Source: Pseudomonadota bacterium (lineage in GTDB: Bacteria; Pseudomonadota; Gammaproteobacteria; Burkholderiales; Rhodocyclaceae). From it: DNA of 64,000 bases. The stretch covers positions 16,559 through 80,558 of the forward strand of contig JAGTRU010000022.1 in NCBI GenBank assembly GCA_018261905.1. The letters are read 5' to 3'. Of the stretch, positions 18,884 to 26,286 are shown one piece after another (within the stretch, counting starts at the first letter, position 1; the number at the start of each line of letters is the position of its first letter). The notes beneath the pieces are model-generated. The model was not told the DNA's origin. It did no database searches and worked only from the letters and a program-made list of their open reading frames with translations. The translations under genes and the position numbers were made by a program.

Positions 18884-20167
18884 CTAGACCATGCCCAAGG
18901 TGCGTGGCAACCAGAGCGACAAACCCGGCCAGTAAGTGACGACCACCAGGAAAACCAGCATCGAGAGCAGCCACGGCCAGACCGCCACGGTCAGCTCGGT
19001 AATCCCCATCTTGGTAATCCCCGAAGCGACGTAGAGATTGAGACCGACCGGCGGGTGACACATGCCGACTTCCATGTTGACCACCATGATGATGCCGAAA
19101 TGCACCGGGTCGATACCCAGCTTGATCGCCACCGGGAACAGAATGGGCGCAAAGATCAAGACAATGGACGACGGCTCCATGAAGTTGCCGGCCAGCAGCA
19201 GCAGCACGTTGCACATCAGCAGGAAGGCAATCATCCCCAGACCATGGCCCATCATCCAGTCGGCCAGCGCCTGCGGGATGTTCTCGTTGGTCATGATGAA
19301 GGAGAACAACACGGCATTGGTGATGATGTAGAGCAGCATCGCCGACATGTTGGCCGAATTGAGCAAGACTTTCGGCACATCCTTCAGACCCAGGTCACGG
19401 TAGATGAACACGGCGCAAATGAAGGCATAGACCGCCGACATCGCCGCCGCTTCGGTCGGCGTGAAGATACCGGTATAGATACCGCCCATCACCACGACGA
19501 TCAGCAGCAGACCCCAGACGGAAGCGCGGAAGGCCTTCCAGCGCTCGGCCCAGGTGGCTTTCGCCTGGCGCGGGTAGTTGAATTTCTTGGCCCGATACCA
19601 GGTCACACCGCCCAGCGTTGCCGCCAAAGCCAGACCGGGCATGACGCCGGCCATGAACAAGGCGCCCACCGAGGTATTGGTCGCCACCGAGTACATCACC
19701 ATGACGATGGACGGCGGAATCAGGATGCCGAGCGCGCCCGAGGTGGCAATGACGCCCGCCCCGAATTTGTTCGGAAAACCTGCCTTGACCATCGCCGGCA
19801 ACAGGATGGAGCCGATCGCCACCACCGTCGCCGGACTGGAACCGGAGACCGCAGCAAACAGGGCGCAGGCCAGCACGCCGGCCAGACCGAGGCCACCGTA
19901 CCAGTGGCCGACCATCGACGCGGCGAAATTGATCATCCGCTTCGCCACCCCGCCATGGGTCAGGAAATTGCCGGCCAGGATGAAGAAGGGGATGGCCATG
20001 ATCTCGAATTTCTCGATACCGGTGAACAATTTCAGGGCCACGGACTCCAGGGGCACCTGGGTCAACGTAAACAGAAAGGTCAATACGGTCAGGCCGAGCG
20101 AAATCGAGATCGGCATGCCGGTCAGCATCAGCACAGCCAACAGGCTGAAAATCACCAGGGCGTTCAT
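18884..20167 (-). CDS. dctM: TRAP transporter large permease DctM
   Basis: Multi-TM; PFFILAGNFLTHGGVAKRMINFA; SGSSPATVVAIGSILLPAM; DctM family motifs. Confidence 0.95.
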   Translation of the reverse strand: MNALVIFSLLAVLMLTGMPISISLGLTVLTFLFTLTQVPLESVALKLFTGIEKFEIMAIPFFILAGNFLTHGGVAKRMINFAASMVGHWYGGLGLAGVLACALFAAVSGSSPATVVAIGSILLPAMVKAGFPNKFGAGVIATSGALGILIPPSIVMVMYSVATNTSVGALFMAGVMPGLALAATLGGVTWYRAKKFNYPRQAKATWAERWKAFRASVWGLLLIVVVMGGIYTGIFTPTEAAAMSAVYAFICAVFIYRDLGLKDVPKVLLNSANMSAMLLYIITNAVLFSFIMTNENIPQALADWMMGHGLGMIAFLLMCNVLLLLAGNFMEPSSIVLIFAPILFPVAIKLGIDPVHFGIIMVVNMEVGMCHPPVGLNLYVASGITKMGITELTVAVWPWLLSMLVFLVVVTYWPGLSLWLPRTLGMV

Positions 20168-20943
20168 TGCTGATCTCCTTCTTTATCCGCATTGCGCCGC
20201 GCAGAGCGGCGCCGTTCTTCTGCCGCGGCCGCGCTCTCCGACTGGCGACGCTCATCACCGCTGCGGCGATCGCCGATCATCGGGTGTTTGAGATCGTGCA
20301 TATGGAGGTTGTCGTCCATCCCGTAGAGATTGACATCAACCGGCGGCACAACATCTTCCAGACCATCGACATGACCGTGATCGTGGTGCGGCAGTTCGCC
20401 GGTTTTGACGAAGCCCCAGGCCACCTGCAGAAAGCGGAAGCACATCAGCGACGAACCGAGCGGAATGGCGCTGTACACCATCCAGGTCGGCCATTCGAGA
20501 TCGGGCGTCGTCGGCCCTTGGTAGTTATCACCGGTATCCAGGCCCAGGAATTGGAAGATGGCGTAATGGGCGCCGTTTTCCCAGACGAAAGTAGCCCCCA
20601 AAGTGGCCACCGTGCCGGTAAACAGCGCGCCGGCGAGCAGGCCGAAAATAATGAACTTGGCGCGCCACTTATCGTCGAGGCGATTGATCAGGACATCGAC
20701 CCCAACGTGGATGCCGGTCCGCACGCCGTAAGCGGCGCCAAACTTGGCCATCCAGACAAACATGATGATGCAGAGCTCTTGCGCCCAGCCCAGATCGAGT
20801 GTCAGCAACCAGTCCTGCAGGCCCGGAATATCCACCCCGGCCAGATAGCGGTGCACGACGGAGACAAAGATGATCAGCGTGGCCGCCCCCATCAGGAAGG
20901 TGACCAGCAACTCTTCTAGGTGATTCAACGCTTTGTTGATCAT
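20164..20943 (-). CDS. dctQ: TRAP transporter small permease DctQ with a long charged C-terminal tail
   Basis: Four TM segments (LLTLDLGWAQELCIIMFVWMAKFGAAYGVRTGIHVGVDVL), then a His/Asp- and Arg/Glu-rich tail. Confidence 0.9.
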   Translation of the reverse strand: MINKALNHLEELLVTFLMGAATLIIFVSVVHRYLAGVDIPGLQDWLLTLDLGWAQELCIIMFVWMAKFGAAYGVRTGIHVGVDVLINRLDDKWRAKFIIFGLLAGALFTGTVATLGATFVWENGAHYAIFQFLGLDTGDNYQGPTTPDLEWPTWMVYSAIPLGSSLMCFRFLQVAWGFVKTGELPHHDHGHVDGLEDVVPPVDVNLYGMDDNLHMHDLKHPMIGDRRSGDERRQSESAAAAEERRRSARRNADKEGDQQ

Positions 20944-21003: not shown

Positions 21004-22008
21004 TTACAGACTATCGGGCTTGAAGCCGGTGTCCTTGTAAACCGCCTGGATGACGTCCTTGCCAACCCGGCTTTCCATCTTCTGATGGACCGGCACCAGC
21101 GCCCTCTTGAAGGCCAGACGCTCTTCCTTGGTCGGCACATAGACAATCGTCTTGCCGCTCTTCTTCACCGCTTCCAGCGCGCTGTCGTTTTCCACCTTGG
21201 CGATCTGGTTGGCGTAGCGGGTCGCCTGCTCCATGGCATCGTCCAACTGGGCACGGACATCGGCCGGCAGGCCATCCCAGAATTTCTTGTTAACAATCAC
21301 CGCATAGCCGAGATAGCCGTGCTGGGTCAGGGTCAGGTACTTCTGCACCTCGTGCATCTTCTGGGTATACAGGTTGGAGATCGGATTTTCCGTACCATCG
21401 ACCACCCCGGTCTGCAGCGCCTGATAAACCTCGGAGAAGGCCATCACCTGCGGCAACGAGCCCAGGGAACGCATTTGCTCTTCGAGGACCTTGGAGGACT
21501 GGATACGCATTTTCTTGCCCTTCAGGTCGGCCGGCGCCTTGATCGGCGTATTCGCCGAGAAGGCCTTGAAGCCGTTGTCCCAGTAGGCCAGACCGCGGAT
21601 TCCCTTGGGCTCGAGCTTGGTCAGCAACTGCTTGCCAACCGGCCCGTTGGTTACTTTGCGCAGGGCATCGTAGTCGCTGAAGATGAATGGCAGATCAAAG
21701 ACTTCGAATTCCTTGACGCCGAGCGGGCCGAACTTGGCGAGCGAGGGCGCCAGCATCTGCACGGCGCCCAGTTGCAGCGCCTCCATTTCTTCCTTGTCCT
21801 TGTACAAGGTGGAATTGGCATAGACCTCGACCTTAACCCGGCCCTTGGTCAGCTCGGCAGCCTTCTTGGCGAACATTTCGGCCGCCTTGCCCTTCGGCGT
21901 ATCGGCTGCCACCACGTGACTGAACTTGATGACAATCGGTTGCTGGGCATAAGCCGCCAGCGATAATGCACCGGCGAACAATGCAATCAGAAGCTTCGAA
22001 ACTTTCAT
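21004..22008 (-). CDS. dctP: TRAP transporter periplasmic C4-dicarboxylate-binding protein DctP
   Basis: MKVSKLLIALFAGALSLAAYAQQPIVIKFSHVVAADTPKGKAAEMFAKKAAELTKGRVKVEVY. Start at 22008 gives the signal peptide. Confidence 0.94.
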   Translation of the reverse strand: MKVSKLLIALFAGALSLAAYAQQPIVIKFSHVVAADTPKGKAAEMFAKKAAELTKGRVKVEVYANSTLYKDKEEMEALQLGAVQMLAPSLAKFGPLGVKEFEVFDLPFIFSDYDALRKVTNGPVGKQLLTKLEPKGIRGLAYWDNGFKAFSANTPIKAPADLKGKKMRIQSSKVLEEQMRSLGSLPQVMAFSEVYQALQTGVVDGTENPISNLYTQKMHEVQKYLTLTQHGYLGYAVIVNKKFWDGLPADVRAQLDDAMEQATRYANQIAKVENDSALEAVKKSGKTIVYVPTKEERLAFKRALVPVHQKMESRVGKDVIQAVYKDTGFKPDSL

Positions 22009-22094
22009 TATTTTCTCCTCCAATAGATAGCGCACAACAAAAGCCAAAATTTCAGCTTGGTAAAAGTATTACGAAAGATATAACCGTTGCGTAT

Positions 22095-22108
22095 TGTGGA
22101 TATCCACA
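22095..22108. promoter_or_regulatory. Palindromic candidate operator upstream of dctP
   Basis: TGTGGATATCCACA, perfect 14-bp palindrome; shares the TTGTGG-N4-CCACA pattern with 23630-23666. Confidence 0.6.
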
Positions 22109-22162
22109 TAACGGCAGCGGCAGATCGGCGCCATCCCCGCAACCGATGGCGTTTTCCAAGAC

Positions 22163-22190
22163 AAAAAAAACCGCCGGACTCGCCGGCGGT
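22163..22190 (-). terminator. Rho-independent terminator downstream of dctA
   Basis: Minus strand: ACCGCCGG CGAGT CCGGCGGT followed by a T-tract (22163-22170). Confidence 0.85.
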
Positions 22191-22210
22191 TATTGCAACA
22201 CAGAAACTAC

Positions 22211-23560
22211 TCAGTGGTGTTCGACCATCGGCCGCGGACTGTGCGGAATCGGCGATTCCATCCCATCGTCGAGGACCAGTTCCGGGACATTCGCCTCGTC
22301 GGAAGTTTCGCCATCGAGCACGGCGTTCAGCTTTTCCGAATTCAATGCATTGCACCACTTGGCAACCACCAGCGTCGCCACGCTGTTGCCGATGAAATTG
22401 GTCAGCGCCCGGGCTTCCGACATGAAACGGTCGATCCCGAGAATCAGCGCCAAACCGGCCACCGGTACCGTTCCGACGGCCGACAGGGTGGCCGCCAGGA
22501 CGATAAAGCCACTGCCCGTCACGCCGGCCGCTCCCTTCGAGGTCAGCAGCAGGATGACCAGCAGCGTGAGCTGGTGTTGCAGGTCGAGCGGCGTATTGGT
22601 CGCCTGGGCAATGAAGACGGCGGCCATGGTCAGGTAGATCGAGGTACCGTCGAGGTTGAAGGAGTAACCGGTGGGCACAACCAGGCCAACTACCGATTTC
22701 TGGGCGCCGGCATTTTCCATCTTGGCCATCAGACGCGGCAAGGCGGATTCCGAAGAGGAGGTGCCGAGGACCAGGAACAGTTCTTCCTTGATGTATTTGA
22801 TCAGCTTCCAGATAGAAAACCCGTGGAAGGCCGCGATACTGCCCAGCACACCGAAGATGAAAATCAGGCAGGTCAGGTAGAAGGCACCCATTAAGCTGGC
22901 CAGTTGGGCCAGACTGCCGACGCCGTGCTTGCCGATGGTGTAGGCCATGGCGCCGAAGGCGCCGATCGGGGCAACCTTCATGATCACGCCGACGATGCCG
23001 AACAAGACATGCGACAGCTTCTCGATCAATTCGAAAACCGGCTTGCCACGCTCGCCGAAAGCATGCATGGCGTAACCGAAGAGGATGGAGAAGAACAGCA
23101 CCTGCAGCATGTCGCCCTTGGCAAAGGCATCGACGACGCTGGTCGGGATGATGTTGAGCAGGAAATCGACCGTCGACTGCATCTTGCCCGGTTCGGCATA
23201 CTTGGCGATGCCCTTGGTATCCAGCGACGCCGGATCGACATTCATGCCGACGCCCGGCGCCCAGACATTGACCACGATCAGACCAATGACCAGAGCGATC
23301 GAACTGACCACTTCAAAATAGAGAACCGCCAGGCCGCCGGTCTTGCCGACCTTCTTCATGTCTTCCATGCCGGCGATGCCGACGACGATGGTGCAGAAGA
23401 TGATCGGCGCGATGATCATCTTGATCAACTTGATGAAACCGTCGCCCAGCGGCTTCATGGCCGCCCCCGACTCCGGATAGAAATGACCAAGCGACACACC
23501 GAGCGCAATGGCGACCAACACCTGGAAATACAGGCTTTTAAACAACCCTCTTTTAGCCAT
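22211..23560 (-). CDS. dctA: C4-dicarboxylate/H+ (Na+) symporter DctA
   Basis: [70 protein letters not shown]. Confidence 0.96.
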
Positions 23561-23629
23561 CCGAATCGACTCCTCTGGTAATGATTTTTAAAAAATTTTG
23601 CGCAGTATTACCAATCGCCGGAGCCCGCA

Positions 23630-23666
23630 CCATTGTGGTTATCCGAGTTGTGGATAGCCACAATGG
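23630..23666. promoter_or_regulatory. Candidate operator: 15-bp near-perfect inverted repeat between dctA and the divergent sensor kinase
   Basis: CCATTGTGGTTATCC - GAGTTGT - GGATAGCCACAATGG (one T/C mismatch); contains TTGTGGATAGCCACAA. Confidence 0.6.
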
Positions 23667-23701
23667 CCAGCCCGAAAAAAACGTGTTGTACCATTCACTC
23701 C

Positions 23702-25687
23702 ATGAAGCCGCCCCTGAACACCCTGACTTCCGGCAACGGCCACCTGCGCTGGCTGCTGGCTCTCCCCAAGCTGGGCATCGTCCTCCTCCTGGGGGCGCTG
23801 CTGACCCTACTCTGGCTACTGCATTTGAATGAAATCGAGGAGGAACGTTCCGCACTGATCAAGGACGTACTTTGGCTGGAACAGAACCTCTATTTCCACC
23901 TCAACGGCAACGAAGAACAATTGCAACAACTGGCCGTCGATGTAGCCATGCTGCCCGAGCCGCGCCGCATCTTTCGCCTGCGCGTCAGCCACCTGCTGAA
24001 AAACAACCCGGAAATATCCCAGATCCTGTGGCTCGACAAAAACCACAGCGTGATCGACGCCCTGCCCGGCTCCGCCCCCCCCGACCGGGAAATCGAAGCC
24101 TTCGGTCCGCCAGTGACGAGCAAGGCCTTCGACATGGCCCGCCGGCTCGGCAAGCTGGTCTATAGCGAACCTTTTTTCCTGGAAAACAACCACGCCTTCA
24201 TCGAAGTCGCAGTTCCGGTTTATCAGGACAAGGAATTTTCCGGCATGCTGGTCGCCGTATACCCGCTGGAAACCCTGCTCGGCAATCTCGTTCCCTGGTG
24301 GTTCACCGAAAAATACAAGGTTGTCATCACCGACGACAACGACATCCTGTACGCCACCAAGACCCATATCGAAGGGCGCGGCAACCAGACTTACGAAATT
24401 CTCTTCGACCCGCCGGGCTATGGTCTGAAACTGCGGGTCAGCACCTACCAGAACAATGGCAACCCGCTCCAGCAATTGCTCACCGTTGCCATCATCGCGC
24501 TCGGCGCCGGCGTCTTCTGGAGTCTGTGGATCGTCCGCGACCTGATGAAAAAACGCCTGCAGGCCGAAGAGGCGCTACGCTCCGAACATGCTTTCCGCAC
24601 CGCCATGGAGGATTCGCTGACCGTCGGCATGCGGGCCCGCGACCTCAAGGGCAAGGTCATTTACGTCAATCCCGCCTTCTGCAAGATGACCGGTTTTGCC
24701 AGCGAGGAACTGGTCGGCCGGGTGCCGCCCATGCCCTACTGGATTCCCGAACAGATCGACGAAACCTTCGCCATTCACCAGTCGGTGATGGCCGGCAAAG
24801 CCCCCCTGGACGGTTTTGAAATCACCTTCATGCGCAAGAACGGCGAACGCTTCCATGCCCTCGTCTATGAAGCCAAACTGATCGACGGCAATGGCCAGCA
24901 CACCGGCTGGATGGCTTCCGTCCTCGACGTTACCGAACGCAAGCATGCCGAAGAACTGGCCCGTCTGCAGCAGGAGCAACTGCAATTTACTTCACGTCTG
25001 GTCACTATGGGCGAAATGGCCTCCACCCTGGCCCACGAACTGAACCAGCCGCTGGCCGCCATCGCCAGCTACAACAGCGGCTGCCTCAACCTGCTGCAGC
25101 GCAGCGACTGCGAAATAGAAGAGATTCGTCCGGCGCTGGAGAAAATCGGCGTTCAGGCCCAGCGCGCCGGTCGCATCATTCGCCGTGTCCACGATTTCGT
25201 GCGCAAGAGCGAGCCCAAGCGCGCCCCCTGCCAACTGGCCGAAGTCGTCGAAGACTGCCTGGGCTTCAGCGAAGCCGATGCCCGCAAACGGCACATCCGC
25301 ATCGAATGCGAAATCCCCGAAGTCCCCCCCATTCCGGCCGACCGCCTGATGCTCGAACAGGTGCTCCTCAACCTGATCCGCAACGGCATGGACGCCATGG
25401 CCTCGACCCCGGAAGGCCATCGCAAGTTGCACATCAGCGTCGGCCTGGAGGCCGCCGAACTCAAGATCAGCGTCACCGACAACGGTTGCGGCATCGGGCC
25501 CGCCATCCGGGAAAAACTATTCACTGCCTTTTTCACCACCAAACCGGAAGGCATGGGGGTCGGCTTGTCGATCTGCCGCTCGATTGTTGAATTTCATCGC
25601 GGCCGCTTATGGGCCGAAGACAATCACCAATCGCCCACCGGAAGCGGTACGATATTTTCCTTCACCCTCCCCCTGGAAGCCGCATGA
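23702..25687 (+). CDS. dctS: Two-component sensor histidine kinase, DctS-like (periplasmic sensor, PAS, HisKA/HATPase)
   Basis: Two TM segments flanking a periplasmic domain; PAS; LVTMGEMASTLAHELNQPLAAIASYNSGCLNLL; adjacent to dctA. Confidence 0.85.
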   Translation: MKPPLNTLTSGNGHLRWLLALPKLGIVLLLGALLTLLWLLHLNEIEEERSALIKDVLWLEQNLYFHLNGNEEQLQQLAVDVAMLPEPRRIFRLRVSHLLKNNPEISQILWLDKNHSVIDALPGSAPPDREIEAFGPPVTSKAFDMARRLGKLVYSEPFFLENNHAFIEVAVPVYQDKEFSGMLVAVYPLETLLGNLVPWWFTEKYKVVITDDNDILYATKTHIEGRGNQTYEILFDPPGYGLKLRVSTYQNNGNPLQQLLTVAIIALGAGVFWSLWIVRDLMKKRLQAEEALRSEHAFRTAMEDSLTVGMRARDLKGKVIYVNPAFCKMTGFASEELVGRVPPMPYWIPEQIDETFAIHQSVMAGKAPLDGFEITFMRKNGERFHALVYEAKLIDGNGQHTGWMASVLDVTERKHAEELARLQQEQLQFTSRLVTMGEMASTLAHELNQPLAAIASYNSGCLNLLQRSDCEIEEIRPALEKIGVQAQRAGRIIRRVHDFVRKSEPKRAPCQLAEVVEDCLGFSEADARKRHIRIECEIPEVPPIPADRLMLEQVLLNLIRNGMDAMASTPEGHRKLHISVGLEAAELKISVTDNGCGIGPAIREKLFTAFFTTKPEGMGVGLSICRSIVEFHRGRLWAEDNHQSPTGSGTIFSFTLPLEAA

Positions 25688-26286
25688 GACTGTCACAAGC
25701 CCATCTGGTCGACGACGACGAAGCGATCCGCGATGCGCTCGGCTGGCTACTCAAGTCGCTGGGCATTCCGTACACGACCTACGCCAGCGCCGAAAGCTTT
25801 CTCGCCGCCTGGAATCCCGGACTGGCCGGCTGCCTGGTGCTCGACATGCGGATGTCCGGGATGAGCGGCCTCGATTGCTTCGACCGCCTGCGCGAACTGA
25901 AGTCGACGCTACCGGTCATTTTCCTGACCGGCCATGGCGACGTCCCGTTGGCCGTAGCCACCCTGAAAAAAGGCGCTTTCGATTTTTTCGAAAAACCCTT
26001 CAACGACAACGATCTGGCCAGCCGCATCCAGGAAGCCATGGCGCACGACGCTCGCCAACGCGCCGCCAACGCCACCGCCGACTCGCTGAATGCTCGGCTT
26101 TCCAGCCTGACCACCCGCGAACGGCAAATCATGGAACTGGTCCTGGCCGGCAAGTTCAACAAGGTGATTGCCGACGAATTGCATATCAGTATGCGCACCG
26201 TCGAGGTGCATCGCGCCAACCTGTTTGACAAGATGCAGGTCAAAACGGCGGTCGAACTGGCCAATTTAATGAAAGCGGGACGCTGA
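25684..26286 (+). CDS. dctR: FixJ/NarL-family response regulator, DctR-like
   Basis: REC (VDDDEAIRDALGWLLKSLG...LDMRMSGMSG) plus LuxR-type HTH (LTTRERQIMELVLAGKFNKVIADELHISMRTVEVHRANLFDKMQVKTAVELANLM). Start overlaps the kinase stop. Confidence 0.87.
   Translation: MRLSQAHLVDDDEAIRDALGWLLKSLGIPYTTYASAESFLAAWNPGLAGCLVLDMRMSGMSGLDCFDRLRELKSTLPVIFLTGHGDVPLAVATLKKGAFDFFEKPFNDNDLASRIQEAMAHDARQRAANATADSLNARLSSLTTRERQIMELVLAGKFNKVIADELHISMRTVEVHRANLFDKMQVKTAVELANLMKAGR

Follow-up and report, generated by a model that had tools for sequence, protein, structure and literature searches.

The window analysed here is a stretch of 64,000 nucleotides, in which the genes of two C4-dicarboxylate transporters lie beside those of a two-component system (Table 1). 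The dctSR genes face dctPQM with dctA lying in between, a placement of dctA that is found in one sub-clade, and this is the adjacency of a DctSR system. The ATG of dctR overlaps the stop codon of dctS. DctR matches both PF00072 and PF00196 above the gathering scores, and its nearest relative of solved structure is FixJ (5xso, E 6e-49). It shares its domain order with FixJ of rhizobia and Bradyrhizobium, but it misses the NCBIfam FixJ equivalog cut-off (218 compared with 255 bits) and its target genes are different. In DctS the PAS, HisKA and HATPase_c domains are all above cut-off, while the Cache-like sensor region is weak (dCache_1, 32.6 bits against a cut-off of 45). The association of a FixJ-type regulator and a PAS sensor kinase with dctPQM is shared with the DctS/DctR-DctPQM systems of Rhodobacter (R. 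capsulatus and R. sphaeroides). Activation of dctPQM by DctSR is established in Rhodobacter (PMC4268860). An intrinsic terminator is located between dctA and dctP, and these are thus separate transcription units.

Table 1. Genes, predicted regulatory sites and promoter elements of the dct locus, numbered from the first nucleotide of the window.
Feature	Position	Strand	Remarks
dctM, TRAP large permease subunit	18884..20167	-	PF06808, TIGR00786
dctQ, TRAP small permease subunit	20164..20943	-	PF04290
dctP, TRAP solute-binding protein	21004..22008	-	PF03480, TIGR00787
-10 of dctPQM, AATACT	22065..22070	-	23 nt downstream of operator
Predicted DctR operator of dctPQM, ATGTGGATATCCACAA on the minus strand	22094..22109	-	predicted centre about -43.5
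Intrinsic terminator between dctA and dctP, AACCGCCGGCGAGTCCGGCGGTT then T run	22169..22191	-	
dctA, C4-dicarboxylate symporter	22211..23560	-	PF00375; NCBIfam PRK01663 DctA above cut-off
-10 of dctA, AATACT	23604..23609	-	23 nt downstream of proximal site
Asymmetric putative DctR site of dctA, promoter-proximal, ACTCGGATAACCACAA	23633..23648	-	conserved in orthologs
Perfect palindrome, putative DctR site	23648..23663	.	distal for dctA, proximal for dctS
-10 of dctSR, TACCAT	23689..23694	+	25 nt past palindrome, 7 nt before dctS ATG
dctS, sensor kinase, PAS + HisKA + HATPase	23702..25687	+	661 aa; start = ATG at 23702
dctR, FixJ-type response regulator, REC + LuxR/GerE HTH	25684..26286	+	

Two copies of a palindrome with the core TGTGG-N4-CCACA are present. 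One, TTGTGGATATCCACAT at 22094-22109 (core 22095-22108), lies upstream of dctP, and the other, TTGTGGATAGCCACAA at 23648-23663 (core 23649-23662), is in the gap between dctA and dctS. These positions and a shuffle test confirm the palindrome TTGTGG-N4-CCACA(A/T) that the first-pass annotation had placed at both locations. Its estimate of 87 nt between the first site and the dctP start was about right, the near end of the site being 85 nt from the ATG (A at 22008). The exact core occurs twice in the 64 kb compared with a shuffle mean of 0.03, and none of 100 shuffled windows reached two copies. The complete 4.9 Mb genome contains three exact copies, of which two are those just described and the third lies within a TraG/VirD4-like ORF. 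The 16-base TTGTGGN4CCACAA has a single copy in the genome with no mismatch, and is found at five more places with one mismatch, the dctP site being among these. At two mismatches the pattern ceases to be unusual (three found in 64 kb, with 1.77 expected), and thus the strength of the signal lies in the exact core.

The dctA-dctS gap contains an extra, asymmetric site, 15 bp from the perfect palindrome, that was not separately listed in the earlier description. An alignment of orthologous dctA-dctS gaps places it at 23633-23648, reading CGGANNNCCACAATGG on the dctA strand. The CGGANNNCCACAA core is present in 13 of 14 dctA upstream regions, including those of two relocated copies of dctA; in the single exception (L181) the sequence is CGGATGTCCTAATGG, and part of CCACAA is lost. 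In genomes G008 and G010 the dctA genes are away from dctSR and retain both of the tandem sites. Their matches to the motif had seemed to be off-target, and were rejected as such once they were seen to belong to relocated dctA genes.

How specific is the motif? The same-genus tally covers 26 of 57 genomes, those with matches listed, and counts an exact core if it lies no more than 300 bp upstream of the gene. Among the matches listed, the exact core precedes dctP in 26 out of 26 genomes and dctA in 15 out of 21. In the remaining six of the 21 genomes with dctA, again among the matches listed, the exact core is not preserved; the four that were inspected (G016, G044, G047 and G060) have a near-match that departs from the 12 fixed positions at one base, together with the CGGA site. 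Among the matches listed for the 26 genomes, the spacer is made of A and T only in 34 of 41 dctP and dctA sites compared with 1 of 36 other matches; the spacer contains G or C in the other 35 of those 36 outside the dctP and dctA promoters. The motif is specific to the promoters of dctP and dctA. Searches of the window's own genome with the asymmetric site, and with the half-site plus a -10, gave no more members of the regulon, the other matches lying inside or overlapping ORFs. The predicted regulon thus comprises dctPQM, dctA and possibly dctSR. The first-pass annotation had named frequency of the motif at unrelated loci and absence from orthologous dct promoters as observations that would speak against its proposal. 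Neither is found in the genome scan or in the 26 same-genus genomes with listed matches, and nearly all dctP and most dctA promoters have the motif. Its suggestion that one regulator co-ordinates the TRAP transporter and DctA is likewise supported by these counts, taken among the matches listed.

The site is found over a much wider range of bacteria. We compared more than 100 related loci, and since these are phylogenetically related their counts overstate independence, though many genera and two classes are covered. Eighty of the loci (L099-L178) were collected by DctR homology and so cannot alone show co-occurrence of DctR and the motif. In most of the 80, dctSR lies opposite dctPQM, an arrangement seen in Rhodocyclales, Azospirillum, Magnetospirillum, Phaeospirillum and Terasakiella; an intervening dctA is confined to some members of the Azonexus/Dechloromonas group. 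TTGTGG is present in 67 of the 71 dctP upstream regions tested, and one of the four lacking it is that of Terasakiella, with the variant AGTGTGG. The half-site CCACAAT precedes dctP in the Rhodocyclales and some Alphaproteobacteria. It is accompanied by GG in the opposite half in 68 TTGTGG-containing dctP upstream regions from Rhodocyclales and Rhodospirillales. In the alignment on TTGTGG the final T of CCACAAT never varies and the GG of the other half hardly does; TTGTGG was used to select the 68 regions, and the final T and the GG played no part in this. The distal half varies, with TGTGG replaced by TGCGG, ACGG or TCGG. Similar sites are found upstream of divergent dctP in five genomes sampled at the level of phylum, and the motif was not seen at Burkholderiales loci with more distant DctR-like proteins. 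Two of the loci, L134 and L136, come from MAGs labelled Stygiobacter and Anaerolineales, and are close to the dct loci of Magnetospirillum and Zoogloea; their assignment is probably due to binning contamination.

The same alignments bear on whether the palindromes could be TTATCCACA-like DnaA boxes, which would tie the genes to replication or to the level of DnaA. The sites of the window, with spacers ATAT and ATAG, are only one base from TGTGGATAA, the sequence complementary to the DnaA box of E. coli. But the spacer of the consensus box occurs in just 6 of the 68 orthologous dctP sites, the dyad is conserved on both sides within the genus, the half-site runs on as far as CCACAAT, and the -10 follows at a constant distance, all of which makes this explanation very improbable. 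The DnaA box TTATNCACA was rejected on these grounds, with only 6 of 68 spacers compatible with its conservation.

A -10-like hexamer (.A.A.T) begins exactly 23 nt past the site in 53 of 67 dctP promoters, compared with 0.8 expected from shuffles, and the gap is 24 nt in six further promoters of the 67. In the window it is 23 nt for both dctP and dctA. No acceptable -35 box was found at dctP or dctA in the promoter search. Assuming a standard placement of the -10, with transcription starts taken from the hexamers, the centre of the site would lie at about -43.5, which is the position of a class II activator. Would DctR instead repress when bound, for example to limit synthesis of the transporters? 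Such a limiting role is compatible with the sequence, and in some dctP-dctS loci, where the site is ~15 nt from the dctS -10, a block to the polymerase becomes likelier. Yet the class II position and the lack of a -35 at dctP and dctA argue against repression, as does the description of DctSR as an activator of dctPQM (PMC4268860), and we regard it as unlikely. The promoters also bear on control by DctBD and sigma-54, known for dctA elsewhere (PMC4268860), which could drive dctA and dctPQM here as it does in rhizobia and Pseudomonas and leave the palindrome incidental. There is however no credible -24/-12 element, with one 7/8 low-stringency match near dctP and none near dctA; a conserved sigma-70-type -10 is found at fixed distance instead. 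Membership of a DctBD/sigma-54 regulon is rejected on this basis, the adjacent regulator being of the LuxR/FixJ type, and such control is extremely improbable.

A connection to DctR comes from a genome of the same genus, G013 (96% complete), in which dctPQM is at another location, beside lolCD-like genes (L241, G013:C116). No DctR ortholog was found there at the search threshold, neither dctS nor dctR was found in the 14 kb around dctP, and the motif was not found before dctP. In three more genomes, all of them incomplete, there is no DctR match, and dctP and the motif are missing as well. The control that is positive for dctP and negative for DctR is thus a single genome, and the link between DctR and the motif is a correlation in a small sample.

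The sites might alternatively be bound by a regulator encoded elsewhere. The genome has a second DctS/DctR-like pair at G000:C64:13603-14169 (L231), whose regulator is about 51-53% identical to DctR. This paralog could share the sites of DctR, given that FixJ-type regulators have similar recognition helices, or a global regulator might be responsible. Against this, the site keeps beside dctSR over many genera, G013 has neither a detected DctR ortholog nor the site, a search around the paralog gave no TTGTGG-type site, and a global regulator would be expected to have more than two target operons. We therefore consider binding by another regulator quite improbable. Conservation, the fixed -10 spacing and G013 together support the earlier proposal that the response regulator at 25684-26286 uses the palindrome. 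The palindrome is very probably the operator of the neighbouring DctR, and this FixJ-type regulator would activate both dctPQM and dctA from about -43.5; we infer direct binding, activation and dependence on phosphorylation from sequence.

Kinases of the DctS family sense C4-dicarboxylates, leading to phosphorylation of DctR. At the locus studied here, C4-dicarboxylates sensed by DctS would cause phosphorylation of DctR, which would then form a dimer on TGTGG-N4-CCACA, immediately upstream of the -35 position. DctR would bring RNA polymerase to promoters with a -10 but no recognisable -35, in class II activation. One site would serve dctPQM, and dctA would be served by two, 15 bp apart, one perfect and the other asymmetric. 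On its other side the perfect site looks onto dctS, and from there it may drive autoregulation through a leaderless promoter.

The evidence for autoregulation, as proposed in the first-pass annotation, is divided. A gap of 25 nt separates the perfect palindrome from TACCAT, the -10 of dctS, in most dctA-linked loci, whereas the distance from site to dctS is variable in loci with dctS directly opposite dctP. Autoregulation is moderately likely at the locus of the window, with the odds slightly in its favour, but it is not a general feature, its geometry being less conserved where dctS faces dctP. In most dctA-linked loci the dctS ATG follows TACCAT by 7 nt with no Shine-Dalgarno sequence, suggesting a leaderless mRNA, and the dctS transcript of the window is probably leaderless. 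The strict pattern of -10 and dctS ATG is found in 31 of the 80 loci, and 29 of these are without Shine-Dalgarno. More broadly, TACCAT, TAACAT or TAAGAT followed by the dctS ATG 6-8 nt on, mostly without Shine-Dalgarno, occurs in many Rhodocyclales loci among L099-L178, and at 23689-23704 in the window.

How does this compare with known systems? In contrast to Rhodobacter DctSR, dctA belongs to the predicted regulon and lies between dctPQM and dctSR, and a predicted operator that is conserved can be defined. In P. aeruginosa, DctBD co-ordinates DctA and DctPQM (PMC4268860), and the control of both transporters by one two-component system is predicted here too. But DctD is an NtrC-type sigma-54 activator, whereas here there is a LuxR/FixJ-type regulator with sigma-70-type -10 elements. 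The window would thus join features of Rhodobacter DctSR and P. aeruginosa DctBD, with a FixJ-type DctR placed over both transporters. No published DctR operator was found in the open-access literature; an earlier description beyond that scope is possible. DctSR is a known type of system, and it is the operator and the membership of dctA that are apparently undescribed so far. The searchable literature stops at the activation of dctPQM by DctSR, and the family now has a predicted operator that is testable. It also has a regulon that can be read from genomes, comprising two operons and possibly dctSR.

There is perhaps an even chance that all this forms a single scheme. Two classes of proteobacteria would share one DctR operator, in which the half nearer the promoter, CCACAAT, is invariant and the distal half differs from clade to clade. 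Within one sub-clade of Azonexus/Dechloromonas, dctA would have joined by means of tandem sites that move with the gene, placing symporter and TRAP transporter on one FixJ-type switch; this switch would also control how much of its own sensor is made, by way of a leaderless mRNA. By carrying a tandem operator, a second, unrelated transporter would have become subject to this switch, and this bears on how denitrifying and aromatic-degrading Rhodocyclales use two succinate uptake routes together. One further feature of the transporter genes is that DctQ (20164-20943) continues past the PF04290 match, from about residue 177 on, as a long charged, His-containing C-terminal tail.
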